A program made the position numbers and the translations under genes. From Candidatus Saccharibacteria bacterium (GTDB lineage Bacteria; Patescibacteriota; Saccharimonadia; Saccharimonadales; Saccharimonadaceae): a stretch of 33,709 bases of DNA. The notes under the pieces were generated by a model that did no database searches, was not told the DNA's origin, and saw only the letters and a list, made by a program, of their open reading frames with translations. The DNA lies in contig JAEUQU010000001.1 in the NCBI GenBank assembly GCA_016789455.1, forward strand, positions 1 through 33,709, given 5' to 3'. This document shows, piece after piece, positions 1 to 33,709 of this stretch (within the stretch, counting starts at the first letter, position 1; the number at the start of each line of letters is the position of its first letter).

Positions 1-1222
1 GGCGAGTGATGCCATTGATATTGAGGACGGAGTGGTCTTTTTCCTGACTTGTTACTCAAACTATGGATACACTTGTTTTGGAACGTCGTCTGCGGCAGTG
101 TCGAAGGTGAGTGATAGTGGGCTTGGGAGTGAGTATCCTCGCTCGGAAGTGGTTTACAGCAATGACCATGATGGTGATGGGTTGCAAATTAGCGATGAAA
201 GTATACAGGGAACAAGCGATCGTTCTAAAGATCACGACGGAGACGGCATAAGCGACCTTCAGGAGTCGGAATCTTTTTCAAACCGACTACAGGCTTACTG
301 CAACACCGCCGTCACCCCTGCCCATTGTGCATATCCAGACCCTCTCAAAAAGGATTTGTATGTAGAAATTGACTCAATGTACGATCAAGATAATGATATC
401 TTAACGCAGCCAACCCCAAATCAGTTGTCGAAAATAGGGCAAGCTTTTGAGGCTCAGGGCATTGAAGCACATTTTGATATAGGAGACTACACAGGAGATG
501 ATGACGATGAAGTTGACCCTACCGTACAAATTGGTAATTATGGTGGTGGCAATTTAGCGCCGTTCTCCGAGCTAGTAGTTGATGCTTCTAACGATTTGGA
601 CGTCCCAGATCTAATCGACTACAAGCGAGGGTCGTCCTCAATCTCTTCTGCTCTATACGAGAATCCACAATTCGATTTCGACAACAGAAGTAAAATATGG
701 AGGTATGTCCTATCCGCAAAAATCATCAATGCACCTACTTCTTCAGATTATACATTAATTTACGGCCAAGCTGCGCCCGGAGACGATGAAGCCTTAATAG
801 CTTTTTCTGCAATCACGGCAAACTCAGTAGATCAAGGAAGTTTCGACAGAAGGTATTCAAGAGTTATTATGCATGAACTTGGGCATACGCTTTGTCTTAG
901 CGACGGGACCATTAGTAGTAGTGGCAATGTAGATTATGATGGCCAATACAATAAGTGCATTTTCAGTAAAATCGATAAAAAATCCGAGGACGCCCCTGTT
1001 GAAGACTATATTAGCATCATGCACTACGCAGTAATGGATGAGATGCTCTACGCTAATGGAATACGGATTGAATATCCTTTACCTATTACGAGCTTCTCAT
1101 TTGGAAACGGCAACAATGGAGACAATGATGACTGGGAGGGCGTGTTGAATGGAATCAAAGATTTTTCGAAAGACAAGAATCACCACTACCCCATCACCAA
1201 CTGTCGTCTTGAATGTTATTAG
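1..1222 (+). CDS. Secreted metzincin-like zinc metalloprotease with calcium-binding repeats (3' part only)
   Basis: The frame is open to the left edge, so the N-terminus, and presumably the signal peptide, lie outside the window; codons run from base 2. Two thrombospondin-type-3-like calcium loops (DHDGDG) sit near bases 164-181 and 230-247. A zinc site HELGHTLCLSD is encoded at 872-904, followed about 40 residues later by a Met-turn-like SIMHY (Met codon 1019-1021). Together these are the signature of metzincin proteases. The usual HExxHxxGxxH is altered: Cys replaces Gly, and Asp stands where the third His ligand would be, as in snapalysin-like enzymes. Family knowledge says such proteins are exported, Zn- and Ca-dependent endopeptidases; the substrate is unknown. 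Base composition is lower in GC than the central region. Two membrane-anchored paralogues follow on the same strand and could be co-transcribed. Confidence 0.75.
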   Translation, partial: ASDAIDIEDGVVFFLTCYSNYGYTCFGTSSAAVSKVSDSGLGSEYPRSEVVYSNDHDGDGLQISDESIQGTSDRSKDHDGDGISDLQESESFSNRLQAYCNTAVTPAHCAYPDPLKKDLYVEIDSMYDQDNDILTQPTPNQLSKIGQAFEAQGIEAHFDIGDYTGDDDDEVDPTVQIGNYGGGNLAPFSELVVDASNDLDVPDLIDYKRGSSSISSALYENPQFDFDNRSKIWRYVLSAKIINAPTSSDYTLIYGQAAPGDDEALIAFSAITANSVDQGSFDRRYSRVIMHELGHTLCLSDGTISSSGNVDYDGQYNKCIFSKIDKKSEDAPVEDYISIMHYAVMDEMLYANGIRIEYPLPITSFSFGNGNNGDNDDWEGVLNGIKDFSKDKNHHYPITNCRLECY

Positions 1223-1254
1223 AAATGAGCCTAGATTTATAGTAAGGTTATGTT

Positions 1255-1974
1255 ATGTTAATAAAAAATAAATTTAAAGTCCTCTTTGCTATAGCCATTC
1301 TTTTTGCAGCATGCCTGGGTCTGTACTTCATATCCTTCAATCAAAACCGTGGCGAAGCATCAACATCACCAACAACACCGCCGTCGCCCGTCGCGAACAA
1401 CGGAGAGAAAAAAGTACCTGGGAAAAAGAACCCTACAAGCATCACTGACAACGACAGGCTTGACGAAGTAAAAACCTCACCGGCACCAGAGGAGTGGACA
1501 CCCTATACAGACTCCGTGCTCGCAACCAATATACCATCAGACTGGAAAGCCGAGGGTGGCCCAACAAGTTCCTCAGTGCGAGACCCAGGAAAATCACTCT
1601 ATACATATAGCGCGACATTCGGCACATCCGACGACAATCGCGAGCGGCCGTGCAGCTTTGCCGTGCAAAGTCTTACCTATCTTCCCTCTATTGAGACGAA
1701 AGAAGGGCTAGATACCGGCGACGACGGCAAATTAACTGACCCGCCCGGCCGCATCTGGACAGATATTATCGAACGCGATCACTTTACGTATAACAGCAGC
1801 AAGGCTGTCCGCTATTACTCTTCCAGTCGCCTTTCCACTCGGACCATCAAGCAGTATGGCATCACTTATTTTGTGGATGGAGGAGAGAAGACATATACGT
1901 TTGGCTGCAAGCTTGATGACGTGGTTACTGCAGAGCTCGCAGATCAACTCTTTACACAGCTGACTATTAATTAG
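1255..1974 (+). CDS. Membrane-anchored extracytoplasmic protein, paralogue family A, copy 1
   Basis: 239 residues: a short basic N-terminus, one membrane segment (about residues 8-27), a Ser/Thr/Pro-rich linker (28-80) and a globular outer domain. The ATG at 1255 follows AGTAAGG at suitable spacing. The outer domain has a P-S-D-W motif, an Asp-rich loop of the form DTGDDGKLTD that looks able to bind calcium, then W-T-D-x(3)-E-x-D-x-F-T-Y, and two cysteines (one near the middle, one near the end) that could form a disulfide. It aligns easily with the products at 2053-2772 and 16401-17087. I do not recognise the family. The P-S-x-W start of the domain recalls PsbP-like or substrate-binding lipoprotein folds, but that is only suggestive. 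It lies 32 bases after the protease gene. Confidence 0.75.
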   Translation: MLIKNKFKVLFAIAILFAACLGLYFISFNQNRGEASTSPTTPPSPVANNGEKKVPGKKNPTSITDNDRLDEVKTSPAPEEWTPYTDSVLATNIPSDWKAEGGPTSSSVRDPGKSLYTYSATFGTSDDNRERPCSFAVQSLTYLPSIETKEGLDTGDDGKLTDPPGRIWTDIIERDHFTYNSSKAVRYYSSSRLSTRTIKQYGITYFVDGGEKTYTFGCKLDDVVTAELADQLFTQLTIN

Positions 1975-2052
1975 TCAGGGTTATGGAGGCGCATACAATC
2001 AAGCGGCCCTATGCATAACAAATGGGTAGGTGGTATACAATAGGATTATAGC

Positions 2053-2772
2053 GTGACTCAAAAAGCACATCCACCTGTCAAAATTACTCTTTTCCTGACA
2101 ATTCCTATCGTAGCGTTGGCCGGGGCTTATTTCTATCTGCATAATAATTCCATAGACACATCAGCACCTAGCGTAGAAATGCAAAGCTCGACAAACCCGA
2201 GTCAAAAATTGAACGGCATATCCGATATGCACGATGAAGTAGTTGATGAGCTTCAGATCGTGACACCCGCTACAAAGCCTTTGGGCTGGAATGAGATGGA
2301 GTCTGTGCATAATAAAGTCGTTCTTGCCCATCCTTCCAACTGGCACGTCAATGGAGGCCCACCCAGTCAAGGCTCCTCGCACACTATCGAGTCGCCTTCT
2401 CTCTACACAGCTTATTTGGGCGCAGATTCTGAGCTTCGAGATAGGCCATGTCGCCTTTCTATTCAAGCTAGCTCCTTAGAAGAAGTTATTCGAGTTACAG
2501 ATGGCCAAGATACGGACGATGATGGCAAAATCACAGATTCGCCAACGCGATTATGGACCGACGTTGTTGAGAAAGACTACTTTACTTACGACAATCACCA
2601 GGCCGTGCGATATGTGTTTGCAAATCGCGTATCGACCAGTCAAGAGAAACGCTATCGCATATTGTATGTAGTAGAAAACCAGGACAAGACGTACTCGTTA
2701 ATTTGCGGCGTAAGAGACGAGCTGCCCGAAAACACAATTGACATGCTGTTTAGACAACTTCGAATTAGCTAG
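2053..2772 (+). CDS. Membrane-anchored extracytoplasmic protein, paralogue family A, copy 2
   Basis: 239 residues, the same length and architecture as the preceding gene: N-terminal membrane anchor (about 10-28), low-complexity linker, then an outer domain with P-S-N-W, the Asp-rich loop DTDDDGKITD, W-T-D-x(3)-E-K-D-Y-F-T-Y, and paired cysteines. GTG is the start, with AGGA at 2042-2045 as ribosome binding site; no ATG lies nearby in frame. The 78-base gap after copy 1 holds no other gene, so this looks like a tandem duplication that has since diverged. Function unknown. Location outside the membrane is inferred from the anchor topology. The gene converges on the VOC gene, with only 33 bases between the stops. 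Confidence 0.75.
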   Translation: MTQKAHPPVKITLFLTIPIVALAGAYFYLHNNSIDTSAPSVEMQSSTNPSQKLNGISDMHDEVVDELQIVTPATKPLGWNEMESVHNKVVLAHPSNWHVNGGPPSQGSSHTIESPSLYTAYLGADSELRDRPCRLSIQASSLEEVIRVTDGQDTDDDGKITDSPTRLWTDVVEKDYFTYDNHQAVRYVFANRVSTSQEKRYRILYVVENQDKTYSLICGVRDELPENTIDMLFRQLRIS

Positions 2773-2805
2773 GATTAAAAAGTAATGGTCAACATCAGGT
2801 AATGC

Positions 2806-3183
2806 CTAGCTCTGCTCAATGATCGAGAGTATATTCCCCGCCGGATCATTAAACCAAGCAATCCGCGGCCCGCTGCCGCTGTAGATCTTGCGTTCGTCGC
2901 AGTTGGCTTCCAGCTCGGGGTAGCTGAGCATATCGACGCCTTTTTCTTTGAGCTCGTCGCAGATCTTTTCGATGTCGTCGACCGGGAAGTTCAGTACGGT
3001 GTGGCTGGCCGGTTGGTGGTCCGGCTTGGTGTAGAGAAAAACGTTGTTGCCGCCCGGAAAGTGCAGGTGCAGCTGGCCGTAGCCGGCAAAGTAGTTGATG
3101 CCGAGGGTGTGGCCGTAAAACTCCTTGGCTTTGTCTATGTCATCGACCGAGAAACTGCTGAAGGCTTTGGTGTGCCTGAACAC
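2806..3183 (-). CDS. VOC-superfamily (glyoxalase/dioxygenase fold) protein
   Basis: 125 residues, the usual size of a single-subunit vicinal-oxygen-chelate protein with two beta-alpha-beta-beta-beta modules. Module 1 starts F-S-V-D-D-I-D-K-A-K-E-F-Y and module 2 has the second V-D-D-I, ending in W-F-N-D-P-A-G-N-I-L. Both are hallmark positions of the glyoxalase/bleomycin-resistance/dioxygenase superfamily. Members bind a divalent metal and act as glyoxalases, dioxygenases, isomerases or drug-binding proteins; the reaction here cannot be assigned. The start is GTG at 3183, preceded by AAGGAGG at ideal spacing. A TATAAT lies upstream on the same strand (3255-3260) without a clear -35. Cytoplasmic, probably monocistronic. 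Confidence 0.85.
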   Translation of the reverse strand: MFRHTKAFSSFSVDDIDKAKEFYGHTLGINYFAGYGQLHLHFPGGNNVFLYTKPDHQPASHTVLNFPVDDIEKICDELKEKGVDMLSYPELEANCDERKIYSGSGPRIAWFNDPAGNILSIIEQS

Positions 3184-14352: not shown

Positions 14353-16275
14353 TTATCTCTTAGTAGCCGTGGTTGTAGTGGTAGCAGAAGTAGTCACGTT
14401 CTGCGTCAGCGTCAGCGCGTCCAGCCGCGCGTTGTTTTCGTTACGGTAGATGGTCAGGGTGTGCTGGCCAGCCGTCAATGTAACCGTCGGGCCATTCGCC
14501 CAGGTCCAGCTGGTGGTGGGTGCGGGCAGCTGCCAGTCCTTCTTGGAAGCGGTGTCAAAGGCATAGTAGAAGGAGTTGTTCGAAGTAGTCTGCGCAATGA
14601 CGCGGCCTTTCAGCGTGTAGCTGCCGCTGACCGGTACGGTAATGCGATAGGTAGCACGCCCGCTGCCGGTGCCGCCGGCCTGAGTGATGTATTTACCGCC
14701 CTGGGCATTGGTATCGTTGTAGATGGCCATCGGTGAGGTCATCGTGCCGGATTCCGCCTCAAAGGAGATGACGGCGGCGCTTGGCTGGCGCGTCACTGAT
14801 ATTTGTGCGGTACCAGAGTTGCCCGCAGCATCATACGCCCGCGCGGTGATGGTATAGGTGCCGGCGGTAGCAGGCACGGTCCAGGCCTGCTCGTACGGAG
14901 CGGCCGTGGCTGTACCAATCAACGTATTGTTCACCAGGAATTCCACCTTGCTGACGCCGACGTTATCGCTCGCCGTCGCCTTGATGGTGACCGTACCGCT
15001 GACACTGGCCCCAGCGGCAGGCGCGGTGATAGACACCACTGGCGCCTGGATGTCGGCAGGCGGAGCCACTGTACAAGCGGCCGTCGGATCACCGACGCTA
15101 TTGCCAGTCAGAATGGGAGCAGTACCACTGAAGGTATTGCCGCAGAACTCACCCATGGTGGCGCTATTCTGGGTGCTATTGATGGCCGAGCCAGTCCAAT
15201 CCTTGAAGCTGCTGTTCTTGACGGAGTTGCCTCCCAGGTCATCGTCGGCCGTGTCGGAGCGGAGCTTGACGTTGTAACCCCGGCTGCCTTCGATAATGGT
15301 GTTCTCAACGCGGTTGTTGTGGCCACGGAACTCGATGTTGCTGCCGGCAAAGCTGGCGCTTGGCTCGTCGTTGTACATGCAGACGCTGCCTGTCATGACG
15401 TTGCTGTGGGCGTTTTCTTTGACGTTGAAACACTCAGAACCGAACGTCCTGATGGTGGTGTTGCTGATGACGTTGCCGCTGCTTGAGTCGTTCTCGTACA
15501 TCGGCTGGGAGGTGGATTTGCGGCTGGTGCCCACATAGACGCCTTCGGCATTGTGGTACTTGTACTGGTCAACATCGTTGCCGCCGCCGTACATGCCGCA
15601 CCACTCGATGGTGGAGTTGCTGATGGTGTTGTTGAACGCGTTATTGCGCAGGCGCACACATTCGCCGCCCGAGCCGTGGATGTACATATCGTCGATGCGC
15701 ACACCGGTGATGTCGCGTGAGTCGGATGAGGCGCCGATGTAGACGGCCTTACTGTTCACCGCCCGGCCCTGCACCTCATCCTTGAAGCTGCGGGCCTCGG
15801 CTGGTGTTGCCGGGTATTCCGTGTGGGCAATGTTCTTTTGACCCTCAACCGTAAAGCCCTTCAGCGTGTAGTAGCTGTGGTTGATGTCGATGGCGTGCGC
15901 ACCCGGGCTGGTGACTACCGCCTTGAAACGGCCGGTAATATCCTTGCCGGTCTCTGGACCCTGGATGGTGATTGGCTCGGCGGCCGTGCCAGCGGTCTTG
16001 GTGATGAGCAGTTCGGTATAGTTGCCCTCAGCCAGATTGATAGTGGTGCCTGGCGTGGCGACATCAAGCGCCCTTTGGACAGTCTTGAACGGTTCGGCGG
16101 CACTGGTACCACTGTTAGTATCAAGCCCGGTCGGACTGACGTACAAGGCGGTTGAGACGGCACGCGCCGACATAGCCGCTACCATGAGCCACACAATCGC
16201 AGCCACCACGGCCGCCATCCCAGCGATATGAAGCTGCCCTACCCTTTTATTTTTTACGACGACAACATGACCCAT
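14353..16275 (-). CDS. Secreted right-handed beta-helix protein with Ig-like and CBM6-like domains
   Basis: 640 residues from the ATG at 16275, which has GAGGG at good spacing; a TTG at 16299 lacks this. A signal peptide or anchor (about 1-40, ending A-R-A) is followed by L-Y-V-S-P-T-G and P-F-K-T-V-Q-R-A-L, the usual start of pectate-lyase-like parallel beta-helices, which run to about residue 395. Next come a bacterial Ig-like domain (about 402-490, with S-I-T-A-P-A-A-G and S-K-V-E-F-L-V-N) and a CBM6-like module (about 495-625, with F-E-A-E-S-G-T-M). The C-terminus is Thr-rich. Such proteins bind or cleave polysaccharides outside the cell; no lyase catalytic residues can be assigned by eye. 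Paralogue of the product of 22657-24954. Confidence 0.85.
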   Translation of the reverse strand: MGHVVVVKNKRVGQLHIAGMAAVVAAIVWLMVAAMSARAVSTALYVSPTGLDTNSGTSAAEPFKTVQRALDVATPGTTINLAEGNYTELLITKTAGTAAEPITIQGPETGKDITGRFKAVVTSPGAHAIDINHSYYTLKGFTVEGQKNIAHTEYPATPAEARSFKDEVQGRAVNSKAVYIGASSDSRDITGVRIDDMYIHGSGGECVRLRNNAFNNTISNSTIEWCGMYGGGNDVDQYKYHNAEGVYVGTSRKSTSQPMYENDSSSGNVISNTTIRTFGSECFNVKENAHSNVMTGSVCMYNDEPSASFAGSNIEFRGHNNRVENTIIEGSRGYNVKLRSDTADDDLGGNSVKNSSFKDWTGSAINSTQNSATMGEFCGNTFSGTAPILTGNSVGDPTAACTVAPPADIQAPVVSITAPAAGASVSGTVTIKATASDNVGVSKVEFLVNNTLIGTATAAPYEQAWTVPATAGTYTITARAYDAAGNSGTAQISVTRQPSAAVISFEAESGTMTSPMAIYNDTNAQGGKYITQAGGTGSGRATYRITVPVSGSYTLKGRVIAQTTSNNSFYYAFDTASKKDWQLPAPTTSWTWANGPTVTLTAGQHTLTIYRNENNARLDALTLTQNVTTSATTTTTATKR

Positions 16276-16400
16276 CAGGCCCTCGCTTTCTCTCTCCAAC
16301 TTAAGACTTCAATGAACGTATCTTCATGATGGAATGCGCTGGCCAGAAAGTCAATATTCTAACACTATTCGTTTTGTAGTGGTAATGACACCTTTGTGTT

Positions 16401-22656: not shown

Positions 22657-24954
22657 CTACTGTCGAATCAACACTATCCGATCCACCATCGACCCCGCCT
22701 CCCGATACTGCAACGTCATAGTATGCGTCCCGGCAGTCAAAGTAAACTTGGGATTGTTAGTAGCGTCATACACCCAGCTGGTAGATGGCTCCTGCAGGTC
22801 CCACATGGCATACGTCCCGCTATCAAACTTCACATTGAACGAGTCCGCATTGCCGCTGGCCGCCTTGATGTAGCCGGCAATCATGTACGTACCATTGGTG
22901 GGCACCTGGATGTTGTACGTTGCCGTGCCCGACGACTTACCAATCACATACTTACCACCAGAAGCACCCGTCTCCGACTGCTCAACGATGCCGCCACTCT
23001 CAGCACCCGCCTCCGCCTCAAACAGGCTGGTGGCCGTGATGGCACCCGGCGCAGTCGGTGCAGTGGCCGCCGTGTTGGCAGTCAGCGAGAGCGCATCTAC
23101 CTTGGTGCCGTTCTCTTTCTTGTAGAGTGTTAGCGTGTGCTTGCCGGCAGTCAGGCTGACGGTCGGTCCAGTGGCCCAGGTCCAGCTGGTGGTGCCGGCG
23201 GTCAGGTTCCAGTCTTGGCGAGAGGCAGTGTCAAAGGCGTATGAGAACGAGTTACTGGAGCTGGTAGGCGCGATCACGCGGCCCTTCAGCGTGTAGCTGC
23301 CAGCGGTCGTGACGTTGAACGTGTAGGTCACGCGCCCCGTGCCGGAGCCGCTCAGCTGGGCGACATACTTGCCGCCTTGGGCGCTTGGGTCGTTGTGGGC
23401 GGCCATCGGCGAGACCAGCGCGCCGGTCTCGGCCTCAAAGTTGATGTTCTGGGTCGTCGGTGAAGCAGGAGTGGTCACGTTGACTACGTTCGATGCCAGC
23501 GATTCCGTACCGGCCGCGTCCACCGCCTTCACGTAGTAGCTGTACGCAGTGCCGCCGGTCAGCTCGGACGAGGTGTAGGCGCGGTCGGTGACGTTGCCGA
23601 TCTTGGTGTCGTTGCGGTACACGTTGTAGGAGATGGCCGAGACCGCACCGCCTGGCGCCGTCCAGCCCAGCTTGACCTCGGTGGAAGTTGAGGATTGTAC
23701 CGTCAGTCCGCTTGGCGCCTGGATGCCGACCTTGGTGTCAGCACACGCCTTGGCCGGATCGCCAACGTTATTGGCCTCCTGGATAGCCCCGTTGGCCGCA
23801 AAGGTATTGCCGCAGATCTCACCCAGCTGCGCCACCGCCTGCTTGACGCTGATAGCCGCAGCAGCCGAGTTCTTCAGGGCGCTCAGACGGATGGCGTTGC
23901 CGCCTTTGTCATACGTGGAGGAATCCGACCAGAACTTGACGCTGTAGCCCCGGCTGCCGTCGACGACGGTATTCTCAACCCGGTTGTTGTCGCCGCGGAA
24001 CTCAATGTTGCTGCCGTTGTAGTCAATCGGCTCGTCGTTATACATACACTCGCTGTTCTGGATGATGTTGTGGTGCGCGTTCTCTTTGACGTTGAAGCAC
24101 TCTGAACCAAAGGTGCGGATGGTCGTTTCGGTTACCAGGATGCCGTTACTGGTGTCGTTGGCATACATCGGCTGAGTGGTCGACTTGGGGCTGGTGCCCA
24201 CATAGACGCCTTCGGCATTGTGGTACTTGTACTGTGAAGAATCGTCGCCCGCGCCATACATGCCGCACCACTGGATGACCGAGCGGCTGACCGCACTGGC
24301 CATGGCATTGTTGCGGAAGCGGACACATTCGCCGCCGGAGCCTTGCAGGAACATGTCATCGATGCGCGTGCCGACGATATCGCGCGAGTCATTGGCCGCG
24401 CCCACGTACACCAGCTTGCTGTTGACGGCGCGTGACTGCACGCTGTCCTTGAAGCCGCGGATGTTAGCAGGAGTCGTCGGGTATTCACCGCGGGCAATCG
24501 CCTTCTGTCCGTCAACCGTAAAGCCCTTCAGCGTGTAGTAGCTGTGGTTGATATCAATGACGTGGCCGCCGGTGCCGTACACCACCGCCTTGTACCGGCC
24601 GTTGATGTCCTTGCCGGTCTCCGGTCCCTGTAGCGTGATGGGATTGGCACTGGTGCCAGCAACCTTGGTGGTCACCTTGCCGGTATAGACCCCCTCTGCC
24701 AAGTTAATCACCGCGCCGGGCTGAGCCAGATCCATCGCCCGCTGGATAGTCTTGAATGGTGCCGAGGCGCTGGTGCCAGTGTTGGCATCAGATCCGGAGG
24801 GACTGACGTAATACGTCACCGTCGCCGCGTTGGCTGCGAAGTAAATCAGTGCGCCGACCGCCACGACGATACTGACGCCGCATGCGATGACAAGAGAGCG
24901 CAGCCGCGAGTCGCGACGGCGCCTGGAGCTAAGTTTGGTGCCTTTTTTTGGCAT
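22657..24954 (-). CDS. Secreted right-handed beta-helix protein with FnIII and two CBM6-like domains
   Basis: 765 residues: very basic N-terminus (S-R-R-R-R-D-S-R-L-R), membrane or signal helix (about 19-42, ending A-N-A-A), beta-helix (about 46-395) starting Y-Y-V-S-P-S-G and P-F-K-T-I-Q-R-A-M, a fibronectin type III domain (about 408-493, with Y-N-V-Y-R-N and Y-S-Y-Y-V-K-A-V-D-A-A-G), then two CBM6-like modules (about 498-628 and 640-765, each opening F-E-A-E-T/A-G). The helix and first CBM are closely similar to the protein at 14353-16275, but the middle domain is different and the second CBM is extra. AAGG lies eight bases before the ATG. Likely a surface or secreted glycan-binding or glycan-cleaving protein. 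Confidence 0.87.
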   Translation of the reverse strand: MPKKGTKLSSRRRRDSRLRSLVIACGVSIVVAVGALIYFAANAATVTYYVSPSGSDANTGTSASAPFKTIQRAMDLAQPGAVINLAEGVYTGKVTTKVAGTSANPITLQGPETGKDINGRYKAVVYGTGGHVIDINHSYYTLKGFTVDGQKAIARGEYPTTPANIRGFKDSVQSRAVNSKLVYVGAANDSRDIVGTRIDDMFLQGSGGECVRFRNNAMASAVSRSVIQWCGMYGAGDDSSQYKYHNAEGVYVGTSPKSTTQPMYANDTSNGILVTETTIRTFGSECFNVKENAHHNIIQNSECMYNDEPIDYNGSNIEFRGDNNRVENTVVDGSRGYSVKFWSDSSTYDKGGNAIRLSALKNSAAAAISVKQAVAQLGEICGNTFAANGAIQEANNVGDPAKACADTKVGIQAPSGLTVQSSTSTEVKLGWTAPGGAVSAISYNVYRNDTKIGNVTDRAYTSSELTGGTAYSYYVKAVDAAGTESLASNVVNVTTPASPTTQNINFEAETGALVSPMAAHNDPSAQGGKYVAQLSGSGTGRVTYTFNVTTAGSYTLKGRVIAPTSSSNSFSYAFDTASRQDWNLTAGTTSWTWATGPTVSLTAGKHTLTLYKKENGTKVDALSLTANTAATAPTAPGAITATSLFEAEAGAESGGIVEQSETGASGGKYVIGKSSGTATYNIQVPTNGTYMIAGYIKAASGNADSFNVKFDSGTYAMWDLQEPSTSWVYDATNNPKFTLTAGTHTMTLQYREAGSMVDRIVLIRQ

Positions 24955-26364: not shown

Positions 26365-28128
26365 TTACTGCACGATGATCTGCTTGCCCGAATGCGGCAA
26401 TTTCATCGCATACGGCTCGCCTTTGGTAATGGCTCTGTGCAGCTGCGCCGGCACCGGCCCGTGGTCGGCCGCCTTGGTGATTGCCTTGCGCGCCTCTTCC
26501 CTGTTGCCGTTGACGCTCTCCTGGATGGCCAGGTAAATCCACAGTTTGTAGCTCTGCGGATACTCCTTTAGCGCCCGGCGCAGATACGCCACATTCTCCT
26601 GCGGCTCACCGTACGAAACGGCCAGTATGCCCAGATTTTCGTAGATGATGTTCAGGCTGCCGTATTCCAGTGCCTTCTCGTATGCCCGCTTGGCACCAGG
26701 ATAATCATTCTGCATCTGCAGGGCCACGCCCAGGTTGGTGTAATTGGTAGCGGTGGGATGCAGGTTGATCGAACGTTGGGCATACTCCTGCGCGGCCGCG
26801 TATTCCTTCTTGCCTATCAGCGCCTGGGCGACGTTGTTCATGGCAAAGTAATGGTCCGGCACTACGGCGATGTCGTGCATGCCCAGCGTGTACTGGCTCT
26901 GGTAATCGAGGCCGCGGATGGCCGTGCGGACACCCAGAATGGCAATCAGCACGGCAAAACCTCCCACCACATAACGCGGGTCGATCTTCAGCCGCAATAG
27001 TGCCGACGCCACGCCCAGCATCCCCAGCACCCCAGCCGACGAGAAGTAGAACCAGGTCTCGCAGGCCGTCATATCTAGCGGGACAAAGTGCAGATGCAGT
27101 ACCAGCCCCACGCCCGCCCAAGCAGCAAAGAACAGGTACGCCTTGAACTGCTTCGTCGGCAGCCCGGCGCGCACCGCTACGCCCAGCCGCACCAGCAGCG
27201 CGATCAGTGCCAGCCAGGCCAGTAGCGGCAATAGCACCTCCCGCACCCCGAACGAGGTATGCACCCAGTAATAGCCCGTCGCCAGCTCCGCTGGGAACAA
27301 AAATTTGGTCAGATAGAACTGGAGAATGGACGGCATGGTCAGCAGCCTGCCCGCCAGGTCGAGCTGGCTGATGGGTGCGGCGTTGGTGTTCTCGCCCAGC
27401 AGCCCCACGGCGTTGATGCGCAGGTATAGATAGAGTGCCACCGGCACCACCAGCATGGCCGCGAACTGCAGCAATCGCCGGCGCTTATCAAACAGCAACA
27501 AGTACAGCAGCGCCACCAGCACAAACAATACCGCCGTCTCCTTGGAGAATAGCGAGAACAGCAACAAGCCGGCCGCCACCACCAACCCCTTCCAGCCGCT
27601 GCTGCGCGAGAGCACCAACAGTGCCAACATGCCGGAGAGAAAGAACAGCGGCTCCTGCATGGAAGGAATCGCAAAGGCCGCCTGCGAGTTGATGGGATGC
27701 ACCAAAAAGATCAGGGCCAGGCCCAGCGCCAGCGCCGGCCGCATAAACTGTTTGAGGAACAGATGCAGCACAAAGGCCGCCCCGGCTATCAACAGCAGCT
27801 GCACAAGATGGTACGCCACGGGTGCCGCCTCCGCCAGTTCGTAAATCAGCGCGAAGGTAGTAGTCATCATCGGCCGGTAAAACGACCCCACCAGATGCTG
27901 CCCGTTAAAGAACGTGCTCGACTTGAAGTAGTAAGGCAAGTTTTGCAACGAATGCACCGGCAGGTTATCGACGATCTGGAACGTGTCGTCGCCCTGGAAC
28001 CCGCCACCCAGGCCCGTAAAGAACACCACCAGCGCCACGCTGCCGATGATGGCCGCCACAAAACGGTCTTCCAGGGTATCGAGCCAGCGCAGCCAAGGAT
28101 GCGAGGCCTGAGTGCGTCGCTTTTTCAT
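26365..28128 (-). CDS. TMTC-like GT-C glycosyltransferase with C-terminal TPR repeats
   Basis: 587 residues. Ten or more membrane helices span about 25-405. The first outer loop has the acidic G-D-D-T-F-Q-I pair expected of GT-C enzymes. The loop F-L-V-H-P-I-N-S-Q-A-A-F-A-I and F-S-K-E-T-A-V match motifs of the TMTC/DUF1736 group of O-mannosyltransferase-like proteins. From about residue 420 to 560 there are TPR units (for example N-V-A-Q-A-L-I-G-K-K-E-Y-A-A-A-Q-E-Y-A and N-L-G-V-A-L-Q). The inferred role is transfer of a sugar from a lipid-phosphate donor to exported proteins, which may include the pilins and surface proteins of this region; the sugar is unknown. Only a weak binding site is seen. 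It starts 13 bases after the PAS gene. Confidence 0.82.
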   Translation of the reverse strand: MKKRRTQASHPWLRWLDTLEDRFVAAIIGSVALVVFFTGLGGGFQGDDTFQIVDNLPVHSLQNLPYYFKSSTFFNGQHLVGSFYRPMMTTTFALIYELAEAAPVAYHLVQLLLIAGAAFVLHLFLKQFMRPALALGLALIFLVHPINSQAAFAIPSMQEPLFFLSGMLALLVLSRSSGWKGLVVAAGLLLFSLFSKETAVLFVLVALLYLLLFDKRRRLLQFAAMLVVPVALYLYLRINAVGLLGENTNAAPISQLDLAGRLLTMPSILQFYLTKFLFPAELATGYYWVHTSFGVREVLLPLLAWLALIALLVRLGVAVRAGLPTKQFKAYLFFAAWAGVGLVLHLHFVPLDMTACETWFYFSSAGVLGMLGVASALLRLKIDPRYVVGGFAVLIAILGVRTAIRGLDYQSQYTLGMHDIAVVPDHYFAMNNVAQALIGKKEYAAAQEYAQRSINLHPTATNYTNLGVALQMQNDYPGAKRAYEKALEYGSLNIIYENLGILAVSYGEPQENVAYLRRALKEYPQSYKLWIYLAIQESVNGNREEARKAITKAADHGPVPAQLHRAITKGEPYAMKLPHSGKQIIVQ

Positions 28129-29019: not shown

Positions 29020-29676
29020 TTACCACTCGTACTTAGTGATAAGCCCGCCCGCCGTCTTGGTACACTCAAACGAAATTTCCATGACGAACTTATTCACTTT
29101 CGGCTCTTTGCGGTTAAGGTTATACCAGACCTGGCAGGTATCCTGGTCGATGCCGCGGATAGAGAAAGTGGCACCGCCGCCGTTGTCACGCCCGGCAGAC
29201 CTATCGTCAGCAATGTGGCCGATATCCTTGATCTGCACCGGGTATACGCCCTCCACGACCTTGAAGTTCTCCAGCGGCCGGTGACGTGCCAGGAAGTTCT
29301 GCGACGTATCGATTGCCCGGTTCGCCTCCTTGACCGTAGTGACCGGCACGGTAATGACGGCACCCGCGCTACACAGGGTGGTATAGCTCATGATGTTCTT
29401 GTTGCAGGCCTTAGAAAACTTGGCCGTCGTCTTGAGCTTGCGGGCCACGCCGGATGCCACCTCGGTCACGGCGGACTTCATGTTCTTGAAGCCGCGCAGA
29501 TTCTGCTCGCGGATGCCGGCGTTGATTGCCTGGAACACCACGAGGCCGATGAAGGCCATCGCCACGAACACGATACTAAGAATAATCACCATGCGCCGGT
29601 GGTGGGCAGCTTCCGCCGCCTCGGCCTTGGAACGGTTTTTGTGTTGAGCTGGGGGTGAGACAGCTTTTTTGACCAT
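29020..29676 (-). CDS. Membrane-anchored extracytoplasmic protein, paralogue family B, copy 1
   Basis: 218 residues: a long basic, Ala/Glu-rich cytoplasmic start (1-28), one helix (about 29-50), then an outer domain with four cysteines (K-A-C-N, T-L-C-S, T-C-Q-V, F-E-C-T). A block of the form V-K-E-A-N-R-A-I-D-T-S-Q and the end F-E-C-T-K-T-A-G-G resemble the protein at 29733-30371. No known family. The ATG is almost at the likely transcription start (no binding site is seen). The first twelve codons and about 17 bases upstream occur again at 33619-33670 as a perfect 52-bp repeat. Confidence 0.75.
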   Translation of the reverse strand: MVKKAVSPPAQHKNRSKAEAAEAAHHRRMVIILSIVFVAMAFIGLVVFQAINAGIREQNLRGFKNMKSAVTEVASGVARKLKTTAKFSKACNKNIMSYTTLCSAGAVITVPVTTVKEANRAIDTSQNFLARHRPLENFKVVEGVYPVQIKDIGHIADDRSAGRDNGGGATFSIRGIDQDTCQVWYNLNRKEPKVNKFVMEISFECTKTAGGLITKYEW

Positions 29677-29693
29677 AGTTATAGACTACCACA
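29642..29693. repeat. 52-bp direct repeat, copy 1
   Basis: Identical over 52 bases to 33619-33670. It covers the start region and first codons of the gene at 29020-29676. The two copies flank a 3.9-kb block of lower GC. Beyond the identity the match resumes (TTACT) after a six-base indel. Confidence 0.95.
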
Positions 29694-29732
29694 AGCACAT
29701 TACTGTTTGACGCCCTGCAAGGTTTTTATCGA

Positions 29733-30371
29733 CTACCATGTACTAAAGTTGTATGATCCGTTAGTCTCGGTCGAGCAGTAAATAATTGTTTTTAAAACTA
29801 GCTGATTCTCAGGTTCGTTCTGACCGTTAGAATAATCAATATCATATTCTACGGCACAATTTGAAACGTCGTCTGAGGCAGCCTTGAAGACCGCATTCCC
29901 TGCATCGTCTTGCCTGTCAGCTACAGAGGCCGCGACTTCAACAAGGCTTACGTTCTCAGTAGGATACAAATTATCACTAGCAAGACCAACCTCCGCAACT
30001 ATGCGGCTCTTCCCCAAGGCAGCCTGCGTAATGTCGATTGTCCGCTTCACGTCTTCATATGTATATATTTTTTCTTGTGCCTCTGCAGTAGTGGTACACA
30101 ATTCCCTTGCTGGAATTAACTCCAGCACCCTAGCCAGCGATGTACAGTCATTAGTTATGGTAAATCTGTCTTTCTGCTTAACTTCTTCAAGCTCTCGTGC
30201 AAGTTGGGTCACGAACTGGCTCAAGTGTTCCAATTTTTGTATGTCAGCCGCGCGCAGAGTGAACAGATATACCTGATGGATTAATATTATCCCTATCGGC
30301 ATGAGAATAAGGGCTAGGATTAGTTTTTTACGGTAACTTAGCGAAGACTTTTTGATGATTTTTTTACTCAT
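29733..30371 (-). CDS. Membrane-anchored extracytoplasmic protein, paralogue family B, copy 2
   Basis: 212 residues from the ATG at 30371 (AGGA nine bases upstream); the frame reaches 30398 but would overlap the previous stop. Basic start (M-S-K-K-I-I-K-K), a helix (about 16-35), then a helical stretch (40-70, possible coiled coil) and an outer domain with four cysteines. V-K-R-T-I-D-I-T-Q and the end I-Y-C-S-T-E-T-N-G parallel the family B protein next door. It is more AT-rich than copy 1 and lies 20 bases after the SGNH gene, so it is likely in its operon. Function unknown. Confidence 0.72.
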   Translation of the reverse strand: MSKKIIKKSSLSYRKKLILALILMPIGIILIHQVYLFTLRAADIQKLEHLSQFVTQLARELEEVKQKDRFTITNDCTSLARVLELIPARELCTTTAEAQEKIYTYEDVKRTIDITQAALGKSRIVAEVGLASDNLYPTENVSLVEVAASVADRQDDAGNAVFKAASDDVSNCAVEYDIDYSNGQNEPENQLVLKTIIYCSTETNGSYNFSTW

Positions 30372-30391
30372 AATTGCTTTTCCTGGTTTAC

Positions 30392-33300
30392 TTAACAATT
30401 TTGGTTAGTGGGGACGCCGACGGTATTAAGTAGTTTTTGCCCCGCTCTAGTTACTAACTGCAAAGAGTCTGGCTGGAGTGCCTTACAGATATCGCTCGCG
30501 TCCTTATATAAAGCCACTGGTGCGTCATTGATTATGACTAATTTATTAAATATGCCTTCTTGTGCAGTCGTATCCGAACTTCCTAGCAACGCCCATCCGT
30601 CACCATTTTCATCATCGTCACTAATGCCAAGTTGTGCCTCTGCGGCTACGATATTTCTCTCAATGTATATTTTTTCGTTGCTCTCCCCTACGCTCGCACT
30701 ACCATTGCGGGCACGATACAGCGTTTGCGTGTTATCTGCAATCCCATTATTGTCGTCATCAGCATCCACTTCACTGGCGCGGCAGGTACTCGCGTTAGTT
30801 GTTTCTACTGTCAAACCTCGAGTCTGTGCCTGAGTAACAACATTCAGGTTTGAGGGGGTCACCTGAACGCATCCGTTTTCCGGATTCCTGAACGAAGCAT
30901 GGGGTATGTTTTGACTATCTATCCAGAACCTCGCCATCTCTCCTTCGGTATTCGTCGTCAGGCTCTCTCCTACTACGGCCCACCCGTCTGCATTAGAGTC
31001 AAAATCATTGGGCATATTAATAATGCTAGCCAATTCTAAATTTCTTTCGAAATACAGTACTTTAGAGTTTAGTTCTGCGGAACCGTTACGTACACGATAA
31101 AGTTGTGGTTCATGGTCAATAACTGGGTCGCACCCGTCGTCAGTCCCGTCCTGATCGATATCAATGTTAGCTTCAGTAGCAAATAAGCATACATCTTGAC
31201 TGTCGCTAATATTGTCGCCGTCTATGTCAGAAGTGGATGCATGTACGGTAATTGGCTTGAATAAATCTATAGGGTCACCTGCAGGCGACTGGCCATATAG
31301 ATGCAGCATATGAAAGCCTGGCTCAAAGTTCGCAGGTAAACTCACTTCACCACTTATCGCCCCATTCGCGTCAACGCCAATAGTGTCAAGTGTTGTGGGT
31401 GTCGATGAGGCCACAACTGTCACAGAACTGTTTGGAGAGAAACCTTGGGCGACAACTTCAAAATCTAAGTCATCAGCCTTTACTATCAAATCTCCAGATA
31501 TCTCAGGCCGATAGTAGGGCAAGTAGTTATACGCACCTCCAAGCGCGGTAAAGAAAGTGGGTGTACCGGGTTCTTGAGTTTGACTTGACGTTAAGTTTAA
31601 ATCATTACTTGCAATAGTCTTGGGACTAGTTGAATCCGGATGACTAATTATCGATGCTATGATTTTGTGTGCTTTTGCATTAGGGTGAAAGCTTTCACCC
31701 CGTTCACCCCTTGCAACAATACCCGTTACCTTTTCTGGATAAAATTCTCCACATAGCTCATAACCAGCCAAGCTATTCTCGATGTCTATATACTCAATTC
31801 CCGCCTCATATGCAGCGAACTCAATGTAATCATTGAGGTATTGAACTCCTTCCCTTATCATCGTACGCTCTGTCTTACTAAGCAGCACATTCATCGGGCA
31901 GTCCTCAGCCTCAAGCTCATCATCTACAAATTGCGGATAACCTATAGCATATACTTTACTTAATTTTGATTCTCTTTTAACTTTCTCAAACAACGCCTCA
32001 AGTTTTTTACCGGAAGATTGAATTAACTTGGCTACGGCCATGCGTCCATTATTCGTGCCAGCATACCAGCAGTCAGAACTAACAGGACTGCTGTGGCTGC
32101 CCCAGCACGACGAAAGCACTGCCTCAAAACCAGCATCATTACCTCCTATCCCTATGGTAATGATTTCTGGTTGATACTTCTCTACAAAGTTGATTTGCCT
32201 TGTGCGGCCTGGCGTAAAATCTTGCAAAGCATCCACTTGAAGCTGTGCGATAGTTAAGTCATTGTACACTCCTTTGAGTCGTCCCTCAATATAACCTTCA
32301 GCTGCCTGGCCAAAGTAGCCACCGCTGCCGCTAATATCCTTCATGAGCGCACCCGAGCAAGCTACAGACTTGAAATTGCCTTGGGTAATTCCTAAAGTAA
32401 AAGCTACTTTATAGGGGTATGATCTTGTGCTTTGATGACATTTTTCTAGTGCGACTGGTGGCTGAGCATTCAAGTTCAGGTTTAAATCTGTTCCTGGTCG
32501 ATAGTACTTGTTGCCATTATCCGGATTGAGCTCAGTATCTCCCTCTCCTGCCGAGTAAGAATCACCTAGCGCCAAATATTCGAGTTGACTATTGCTATGC
32601 CCCCATGCTGTTAACGTGTTTTGGCCATCAATACCAAAGCGCAGGACAGTTGCATCAGAGTTAAAGCTAGCGTGAAATGCCCCACTAAATCCACCCGTAA
32701 AGTTACTGTTCATAAATGATGTCAGGTCTTTTATCGCACATCCGCTTACGACCGCCAGCTCGTCTTGTGCGTTAGGGGTACCACACGTTGACAGGTCATA
32801 AATTTTTAAATAGCCATACGAACTGCTTGAAACATAGCGTCCATCATTACTAATTGCCAAATCATAGTCAGAATAAAATCCATTAGTTGGCAATCCATCC
32901 GCAAAAGTCATCACTTCATAATTATCAAGATTGATGCGAAGAAGCTTGCCTGAATTTGTCTGAACTATCAGCCATTTCCCGTTCGACGACGAATCAATTG
33001 TGCGCGTGGCAACTGGATTGTTACTTGAATCAAGCAGCCTTTTTCCGATCGTTAAACTATCAAGCTTATATCTGAGATCATAGTTATTGTACCCCGTATC
33101 CAAGTACATAGTTTCTGGGAGTTCATATATATCTAAATTTCCAGACAATCCTCCGCCACCAGCCATCACCAGCTTGTCTGTATTGGGAACAAGGACTGGC
33201 TCTAAGCCATTGGAGGTATAGGTGTTAATCATATAAAACAACTTATTAAAACCAACTTTTACGCCTCCCGCACTAGATATTTCACCCCAAGAAGTTTGCA

Positions 33301-33559
33301 CCACGCATCCCTGTGTATCTTCAGTCTGGCTACTGGATTTGAAAATTTTCGTGGCCTGGGCACTACAGTACCTCCCAGTGCTAAAAGTTGGTGGCTGCCC
33401 AGTCCCACTGGCTTGAGTCAATGTGGGGTTGGCACTGACCGTCCATATAGAAGTTGCCCTTACGGCGGAAGTATATAGCGACAAAATCACAACCATCATC
33501 AAAAGTGCCCCCGTCATTCGATATGCGCTTTTACCTAAAAACCATGTATTACTTCTCAT
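30392..33559 (-). CDS. Large secreted SGNH/GDSL hydrolase with propeller-like and calcium-binding domains
   Basis: 1055 residues. Signal peptide or anchor (about 13-36, ending V-R-A). Residues 80-320 have repeated strand motifs with S-N-D-G-R-Y-V-S and G-K-W-L-I-V, resembling a beta-propeller. An SGNH hydrolase follows: block I L-G-D-S-Y-S-A-G-E-G (Ser334), block III G-G-N-D (472-475), block V E-S-F-H-P-N (His625). A beta-sandwich lies at about 690-775, then thrombospondin-3-like loops D-I-D-G-D-N-I-S-D and D-Q-D-G-T-D-D-G (778-811), then two copies of a C-terminal module (about 819-918 and 947-1048), each with L-Y-R-x-R-N-G-S-A and D-G-W-A. Such enzymes de-acylate lipids or glycans outside the cell. 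The start has AAGGA seven bases upstream. The low GC suggests acquisition. Confidence 0.85.
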   Translation of the reverse strand: MRSNTWFLGKSAYRMTGALLMMVVILSLYTSAVRATSIWTVSANPTLTQASGTGQPPTFSTGRYCSAQATKIFKSSSQTEDTQGCVVQTSWGEISSAGGVKVGFNKLFYMINTYTSNGLEPVLVPNTDKLVMAGGGGLSGNLDIYELPETMYLDTGYNNYDLRYKLDSLTIGKRLLDSSNNPVATRTIDSSSNGKWLIVQTNSGKLLRINLDNYEVMTFADGLPTNGFYSDYDLAISNDGRYVSSSSYGYLKIYDLSTCGTPNAQDELAVVSGCAIKDLTSFMNSNFTGGFSGAFHASFNSDATVLRFGIDGQNTLTAWGHSNSQLEYLALGDSYSAGEGDTELNPDNGNKYYRPGTDLNLNLNAQPPVALEKCHQSTRSYPYKVAFTLGITQGNFKSVACSGALMKDISGSGGYFGQAAEGYIEGRLKGVYNDLTIAQLQVDALQDFTPGRTRQINFVEKYQPEIITIGIGGNDAGFEAVLSSCWGSHSSPVSSDCWYAGTNNGRMAVAKLIQSSGKKLEALFEKVKRESKLSKVYAIGYPQFVDDELEAEDCPMNVLLSKTERTMIREGVQYLNDYIEFAAYEAGIEYIDIENSLAGYELCGEFYPEKVTGIVARGERGESFHPNAKAHKIIASIISHPDSTSPKTIASNDLNLTSSQTQEPGTPTFFTALGGAYNYLPYYRPEISGDLIVKADDLDFEVVAQGFSPNSSVTVVASSTPTTLDTIGVDANGAISGEVSLPANFEPGFHMLHLYGQSPAGDPIDLFKPITVHASTSDIDGDNISDSQDVCLFATEANIDIDQDGTDDGCDPVIDHEPQLYRVRNGSAELNSKVLYFERNLELASIINMPNDFDSNADGWAVVGESLTTNTEGEMARFWIDSQNIPHASFRNPENGCVQVTPSNLNVVTQAQTRGLTVETTNASTCRASEVDADDDNNGIADNTQTLYRARNGSASVGESNEKIYIERNIVAAEAQLGISDDDENGDGWALLGSSDTTAQEGIFNKLVIINDAPVALYKDASDICKALQPDSLQLVTRAGQKLLNTVGVPTNQNC

Positions 33560-33653
33560 TTTTATTTCCTTTTACCGAACGCCTTGGCTTCTGGCATATC
33601 GGTCGTGAACCGTTTTGATGTTGAGCTGGGGGTGAGACAGCTTTTTTGACCAT
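33549..33653 (-). pseudogene. Truncated copy of the 29020-29676 gene's 5' end, now a 34-codon leader ORF
   Basis: ATG (33653-33651) begins M-V-K-K-A-V-S-P-P-A-Q-H, identical to the family B copy 1 product, then diverges and stops at TAA (33551-33549) after 34 residues. The stop lies inside the start of the SGNH gene (overlap of 11 bases). It seems that the start region and first codons of the family B gene have been duplicated in front of the SGNH gene and may supply its promoter and translational coupling. Confidence 0.7.
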
Positions 33654-33670
33654 AGTTATAGACTACCACA
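33619..33670. repeat. 52-bp direct repeat, copy 2
   Basis: Perfect copy of 29642-29693 in the same orientation. It bounds the right end of the low-GC block that holds the SGNH gene and its family B partner. Confidence 0.95.
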
Positions 33671-33709
33671 TTACTAGCTGAGCATTGAGGGCCACAGCAT
33701 GATTAACAG

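Follow-up and report, generated by a model that had tools for sequence, protein, structure and literature searches.

A low-GC island of about 5.5 kb in this putative Saccharibacterium genome was probably built stepwise, by recombination at a shared start sequence in front of a resident gene (B1), an explanation that we hold with roughly even confidence. Each step would have left a copy of the B1 start region, that is, promoter-like sequence with a start codon, at a module junction. Saccharibacteria are ultrasmall bacteria, and the group includes epibionts. The contig (C1) is 149,920 bases long and the window covers its first 33,709, so the right repeat copy does not lie at a contig end. Every gene in this region is encoded on the minus strand; the features are as follows.

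29020..29676, minus strand: B1, the resident family B gene, whose codon use is host-like (GC3 0.76)
29642..29693, minus strand: left 52-nt copy, the B1 start region with the first 11 B1 codons
29674..29693, minus strand: motif copy P1 (TGTGGTAGTCTATAACTATG)
29694..33709: low-GC island as far as it lies in the window (its full extent is contig 29,636-35,201)
29733..30371, minus strand: B2, family B, with one N-terminal membrane helix and four conserved cysteines
30392..33559, minus strand: SGNH1, predicted secreted SGNH/GDSL esterase, 1055 aa
33549..33653, minus strand: leader ORF of 34 codons, opening with copied B1 codons and overlapping the SGNH1 start by 11 nt
33619..33670, minus strand: right 52-nt copy, between the 127-aa gene and SGNH1, directly before SGNH1
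33651..33670, minus strand: motif copy P2
contig 34662..34051, minus strand: B3, third family B gene, right of the 127-aa gene
contig 35064..34711, minus strand: 117-aa membrane-type gene, between B3 and P3
contig 35155-35171, outside the window: P3, third, diverged motif copy (GGTAGTCTGTAGCTATG), at the right edge of the island
contig 50826..47614: SGNH2, about 17 kb from SGNH1 and 54% identical to it, with three family B genes alongside

The direct repeat of 29642-29693 and 33619-33670 was identical over 52 nt, as the preliminary description had claimed, and extended to 64 nt at 95% when mismatches were allowed (29630-29693 vs 33607-33670). A scan of the whole 1,437,857-base (1.44-Mb) genome found these two copies only, and among the exact direct repeats of about 270 kb (all of C1 and 120 kb of C2) the pair ranked first in length. 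The runners-up, of 46 and 41 nt, were both located within one paralogous gene pair, and the sole longer exact match in the same ~270 kb was a 64-nt inverted overlap between contig ends. Read on the minus strand, the repeat combines 17 nt from ahead of B1 with the gene's first 11 codons from the ATG on, which agrees with the original placement of the left copy on the start of that gene. Joining the flank before P2 to P1 gave the full 218-codon B1; the target gene had been described as kept intact, and it does stay whole because its start region was copied. The copies are separated by 3,925 nt with 44.2% GC. Searched as an exact pattern in viral contigs, the 52-nt repeat gave 0 matches.

The exact identity points to recent copying or conversion of the 52-nt piece and gives no date for the genes. 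The word recent, applied by the preliminary description to the whole event, is thus likely to hold for the 52-nt copy itself but does not carry over to the genes. Beyond the core, the next 45 nt of the P1/P2 comparison were scored equally well by 5 of 4000 random anchors, and by 154 of 4000 when the first 14 nt were skipped. The homology may therefore fade rather than stop, a hint that the copy is older and its core has been preserved. An upstream extension of this homology was dropped, as a 7-mer test gave no match.

The copied sequence resembles a promoter. TG-N-TAGTCT, an extended -10-like element, is found at -15 to -7 from the B1 ATG, where an extended -10 promoter for a leaderless or nearly leaderless transcript would be placed. 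TANNNT, scored ahead of 184 genes of the genome, peaked at -12, -14 and -15 (11 genes at each position), and at -12 the inside-gene control gave 0. Scans for sigma-70 promoters and terminators performed no better than on shuffles. P1, P2 and P3 all precede a start codon, at equal distance. Since the leader ORF overlaps the SGNH1 start, translation of the two could be coupled, although a short open frame of this kind is not unlikely by chance.

The low GC had been taken for a 3.9-kb block ending at the right 52-nt copy. It actually runs on past that copy to contig ~35,200, outside the window. An unsupervised two-state GC segmentation delimited the island at 29,636-35,201, and a separate one-island likelihood fit gave 29,665-35,199, with edges supported within 29,615-29,680 and 35,164-35,234. 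Inspection of the sequence beyond 33709, which the preliminary description had proposed, yielded a third site and B3. Without mismatch (two purine positions free), the motif occurs in three places only, all in one 6-kb stretch. P3 resembles P1 over only ~30 nt; none of 200 shuffles and none of 196 random pairs scored as high as this imperfect edge repeat, and a comparable edge repeat was absent in the other 12 low-GC islands tested (3 of which touch the end of the sequence examined). The island is therefore described as two low-GC modules, bounded and separated by copies of the B1 start, in the order P3 / 117-aa gene, B3, 127-aa gene / P2 / SGNH1, B2 / P1-B1. In this layout P1 and P2 form the inner, youngest-looking pair.

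The codon usage and GC check bore out the description of the block as richer in A+T than the genes to its left: GC3 was 0.40 in SGNH1, 0.44 in B2 and 0.36 in B3, vs 0.76 in B1. Among 203 long ORFs, SGNH1, B2 and B3 ranked in the lowest 6% and B1 at the 75th percentile. The 127-aa gene (GC3 0.58) was less extreme than the other island genes, and beyond P3 the sequence is host-like again, with a 209-aa gene at 0.82. At 10 loci of relatives the GC of the SGNH gene was within about 0.05 of its flanks, so the SGNH family is not A+T-rich by nature. Several further low-GC islands were found in this genome; low GC alone is thus common here. As for the suggested insertion, the foreign-looking composition and the duplicated start region speak for it, but the 52-nt pair marks only part of an island of ~5.5 kb with a third site.

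SGNH1 was assigned to the SGNH/GDSL esterases, with predicted activity, on the basis of its domain and catalytic blocks. It matched Lipase_GDSL_2 (PF13472) at E 2.4e-10 (41.6 bits vs a cut-off of 32.9), and the GDS, GGND and H-P blocks (G332-D333-S334, G473-N474 and H625-P626) were invariant across 13 aligned homologues. A thrombospondin-type-3-like Asp-rich stretch is also present. These results, together with B2 (20% identical to B1), agree with the earlier reading of the block contents as an SGNH gene and a family B paralogue. When 52 proteins were placed in a tree, with L071 and L111 left out, SGNH1 and SGNH2 came out as fully supported sisters, and the next rows were more than three times as distant. 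This suggests that the module may be a within-lineage duplicate and not foreign DNA. SGNH2 has two tRNAs beside it, a tRNA-Arg being directly upstream, and belongs to a second low-GC SGNH island (C1 44,434-51,268; L003 10935-17769) without an edge repeat.

SGNH homologues were detected in 17 of the 61 genomes searched, our own included. A second contig scan supplied 80 SGNH loci (the first gave none), and the named loci are mostly Saccharibacteria, the ground on which this genome is placed in that group. Neighbours were counted at 52 of the 80, and the other 28 were scanned separately; these are mostly non-Saccharibacteria and also include L113, L109, L123 and L095 (labelled Legionella). A family-B-like gene was directly beside the SGNH gene (<=100 nt) in 24 of the 52 Saccharibacterial loci, one further match at those loci being a tandem copy, and the remaining 28 of the 52 had no such neighbour at E <= 0.01. 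The same profile, which was built only from the six family B proteins of this genome and applied at E <= 0.01, gave 0 matches at the 28 loci scanned separately. Judged from these sequences, SGNH plus family B is a conserved Saccharibacterial gene pair and not random cargo. The contents being this pair, and the closest relative of SGNH1 being in the same genome, both speak against the preliminary reading as it was worded. Exact flanking repeats like those of the window were found at none of the 52 SGNH loci of relatives. The accessible text of one study reports a soil Saccharibacterium with two SGNH hydrolases and leaves a partner gene unmentioned (PMC6031116). No title or abstract found in the literature on Saccharibacteria, in a search that had most subscription papers outside its reach, described the module.

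In a 28-row alignment of family B, four cysteines are invariant and a hydrophobic helix is present at the N-terminus; a profile-profile comparison with 18 companions gave 97.5% probability. A wider search with the 28-row profile produced 6 strong matches (E < 1e-10) outside our genome, 5 of them beside an SGNH gene; this search is not independent, because some of the matched genomes probably contributed rows to the profile. Pfam gave no consistent match (6 families, each with 1 of 28 members), and no family B match was found among PDB sequences. The predicted structure (pLDDT 78.8, pTM 0.72) had no Foldseek match at E <= 0.001. The top two VIA-align fold matches of the model, both near background, were to a Mycobacterium LppA lipoprotein and an Actinomyces DUF4853 protein (Z 9.0, rmsd 5.8, 143 aligned; Z 8.3, rmsd 3.5, 130 aligned). 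At one locus (L064 10667-11903) two tandem family B genes have a 78-nt exact repeat in common.

An empty site was looked for in relatives. A search of the other 393 family genomes with B1 gave no match, and for that reason no empty site was found. The family B profile gave two weak matches only in 60 relatives, and the flanking gene 26365..28128 one weak match in 40, with no usable empty site in either case. For recombinases, a Pfam search of the SGNH, family B, 127-aa and 117-aa genes of the island found none. The only tyrosine recombinase (PF00589) genome-wide is at C2:965659-966234, on the other contig, so the remark that the window lacks an integrase stands and can be extended to the neighbourhood. 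A large serine recombinase is encoded at C1 74,426-76,072 (L006 1426-3072), 39 kb beyond the island and in another low-GC island. No tRNA or Rfam match was found in the window.

For the stepwise explanation there are three site copies, at both composition edges and at the module junction, with P1 and P2 exact and B1 intact, and the SGNH+B pairing is conserved in relatives. The copies would be products of homologous recombination and not of a dedicated integrase, with DNA taken up from outside, for example, or inside the chromosome; such recombination needs neither a tyrosine nor a serine recombinase. For a cultured Saccharibacterium, PMC10633639 documents natural transformation by DNA that carries homologous arms, and thus uptake followed by recombination. 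SGNH1 would now be expressed from P2 by way of the short coupled leader ORF, and an exchange between P1 and P2 could cleanly remove SGNH1 and B2, leaving B1 whole. Against the stepwise explanation stand the lack of an empty site in the genomes searched, the limited likeness of P3 to P1 (only ~30 nt), the P1/P2 homology that may fade, the sister relation of SGNH1 and SGNH2, and the less extreme GC3 of the 127-aa gene. Since a promoter is found at the start of a module in any case, the positions of the sites do not in themselves prove insertion. A broader version, which we think unlikely, is an integrase-free cassette system in which esterase/partner modules accumulate before a resident gene. 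Each module would then start with a copy of the resident promoter and start, serving as recombination handle and expression signal, and modules could be gained or lost without harm to the resident gene.

Several of these observations can be read in other ways. SGNH1-B2 might already have been in place, with only the B1 promoter and first codons copied upstream of SGNH1 by a short duplication or gene conversion, which would have put both units under the same promoter. The promoter-like nature of the copied piece (TANNNT at -12 being among the enriched positions), the way P2 leads into a leader ORF overlapping the SGNH1 start, and the possible fading of homology beyond the 52-nt core make this possible, if somewhat doubtful; start copying alone does not explain why the outer island edges lie on P1 and P3, nor why a host-like gene and low-GC modules have a start sequence in common. 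Insertion by an integrase that used the 5' end of B1 as its attachment site, and that either works in trans or has since disappeared, would account for the intact target gene and for three site copies that look like serial insertion at one site, and the genome does encode a serine recombinase elsewhere on the contig and a tyrosine recombinase on the other. Yet no recombinase is near the island, the window has no tRNA or Rfam match, and the shared core left behind by a serine recombinase is normally short, so we consider this quite unlikely.

The equal distance of all three copies from a start codon would also be expected of three transcription units under a selected common operator or promoter, the repeat then being a regulon signature and not a mobility scar. 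Promoter selection, however, does not account for 11 codons that agree at every synonymous position, and the motif did no better than its reversed control at the 52 SGNH loci of relatives; we regard such a regulon as improbable. An assembly artefact is hardly credible: many assembly k-mers exceed 52 nt in length, but the flanks differ on both sides, both copies are inside the 149,920-base contig, and the third copy has diverged.

Compared with known systems, the island resembles genomic islands and integrative elements that end in direct repeats, including those formed by tandem accretion at one site, in its foreign composition, its edge direct repeats, the intact target gene and the internal repeat between modules. 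Its composition is bounded and unlike the host, and direct repeats are present at both edges. It differs in having no linked integrase or transposase by Pfam on the island genes, no tRNA target and no empty site seen, and in carrying a gene pair conserved in the phylum. SGNH1 resembles the SGNH/GDSL family (PF13472/PF00657) in its above-cut-off domain match and invariant catalytic blocks, but it is large and predicted to be secreted, with Asp-rich repeats, and in Saccharibacteria such genes are often beside one for a four-cysteine membrane protein. Enzymes with a membrane-anchored partner include those served by lipase foldases and toxic lipases with immunity proteins. As in these pairs, the enzyme gene here adjoins a gene for a small anchored protein, in our case tandemly multiplied; unlike them, family B has no sequence link or clear fold link to such partners.

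If true, the stepwise explanation would show a genome-reduced bacterium adding surface or secreted functions beside an existing gene with no integrase at hand. The pairing of SGNH with a four-cysteine membrane protein across Saccharibacteria is an unannotated module, and it could bear on how these bacteria act on host lipids or surfaces.

Some further repeats were observed. SGNH 3'-end fragments recur downstream of some Saccharibacterial SGNH genes (L060 8249-9417, L063 10310-11277 and L076 9782-10559), each directly before a small membrane-protein gene and with exact repeats of up to 346 nt; these arrays resemble orphan-tail cassette arrays and may reflect the same kind of local duplication. 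Two paralogous proteins, which read as beta-helix-type, are encoded at window 14353-16299 and 22657-24954, with 46- and 41-nt exact DNA matches. Both contigs start with low-GC sequence (window 1-2862 and C2 1-2353) that shares 26-29-nt exact stretches in opposite orientation, and at their other ends the two contigs overlap over 64 nt. The genome could be a single circle interrupted at a repeat.
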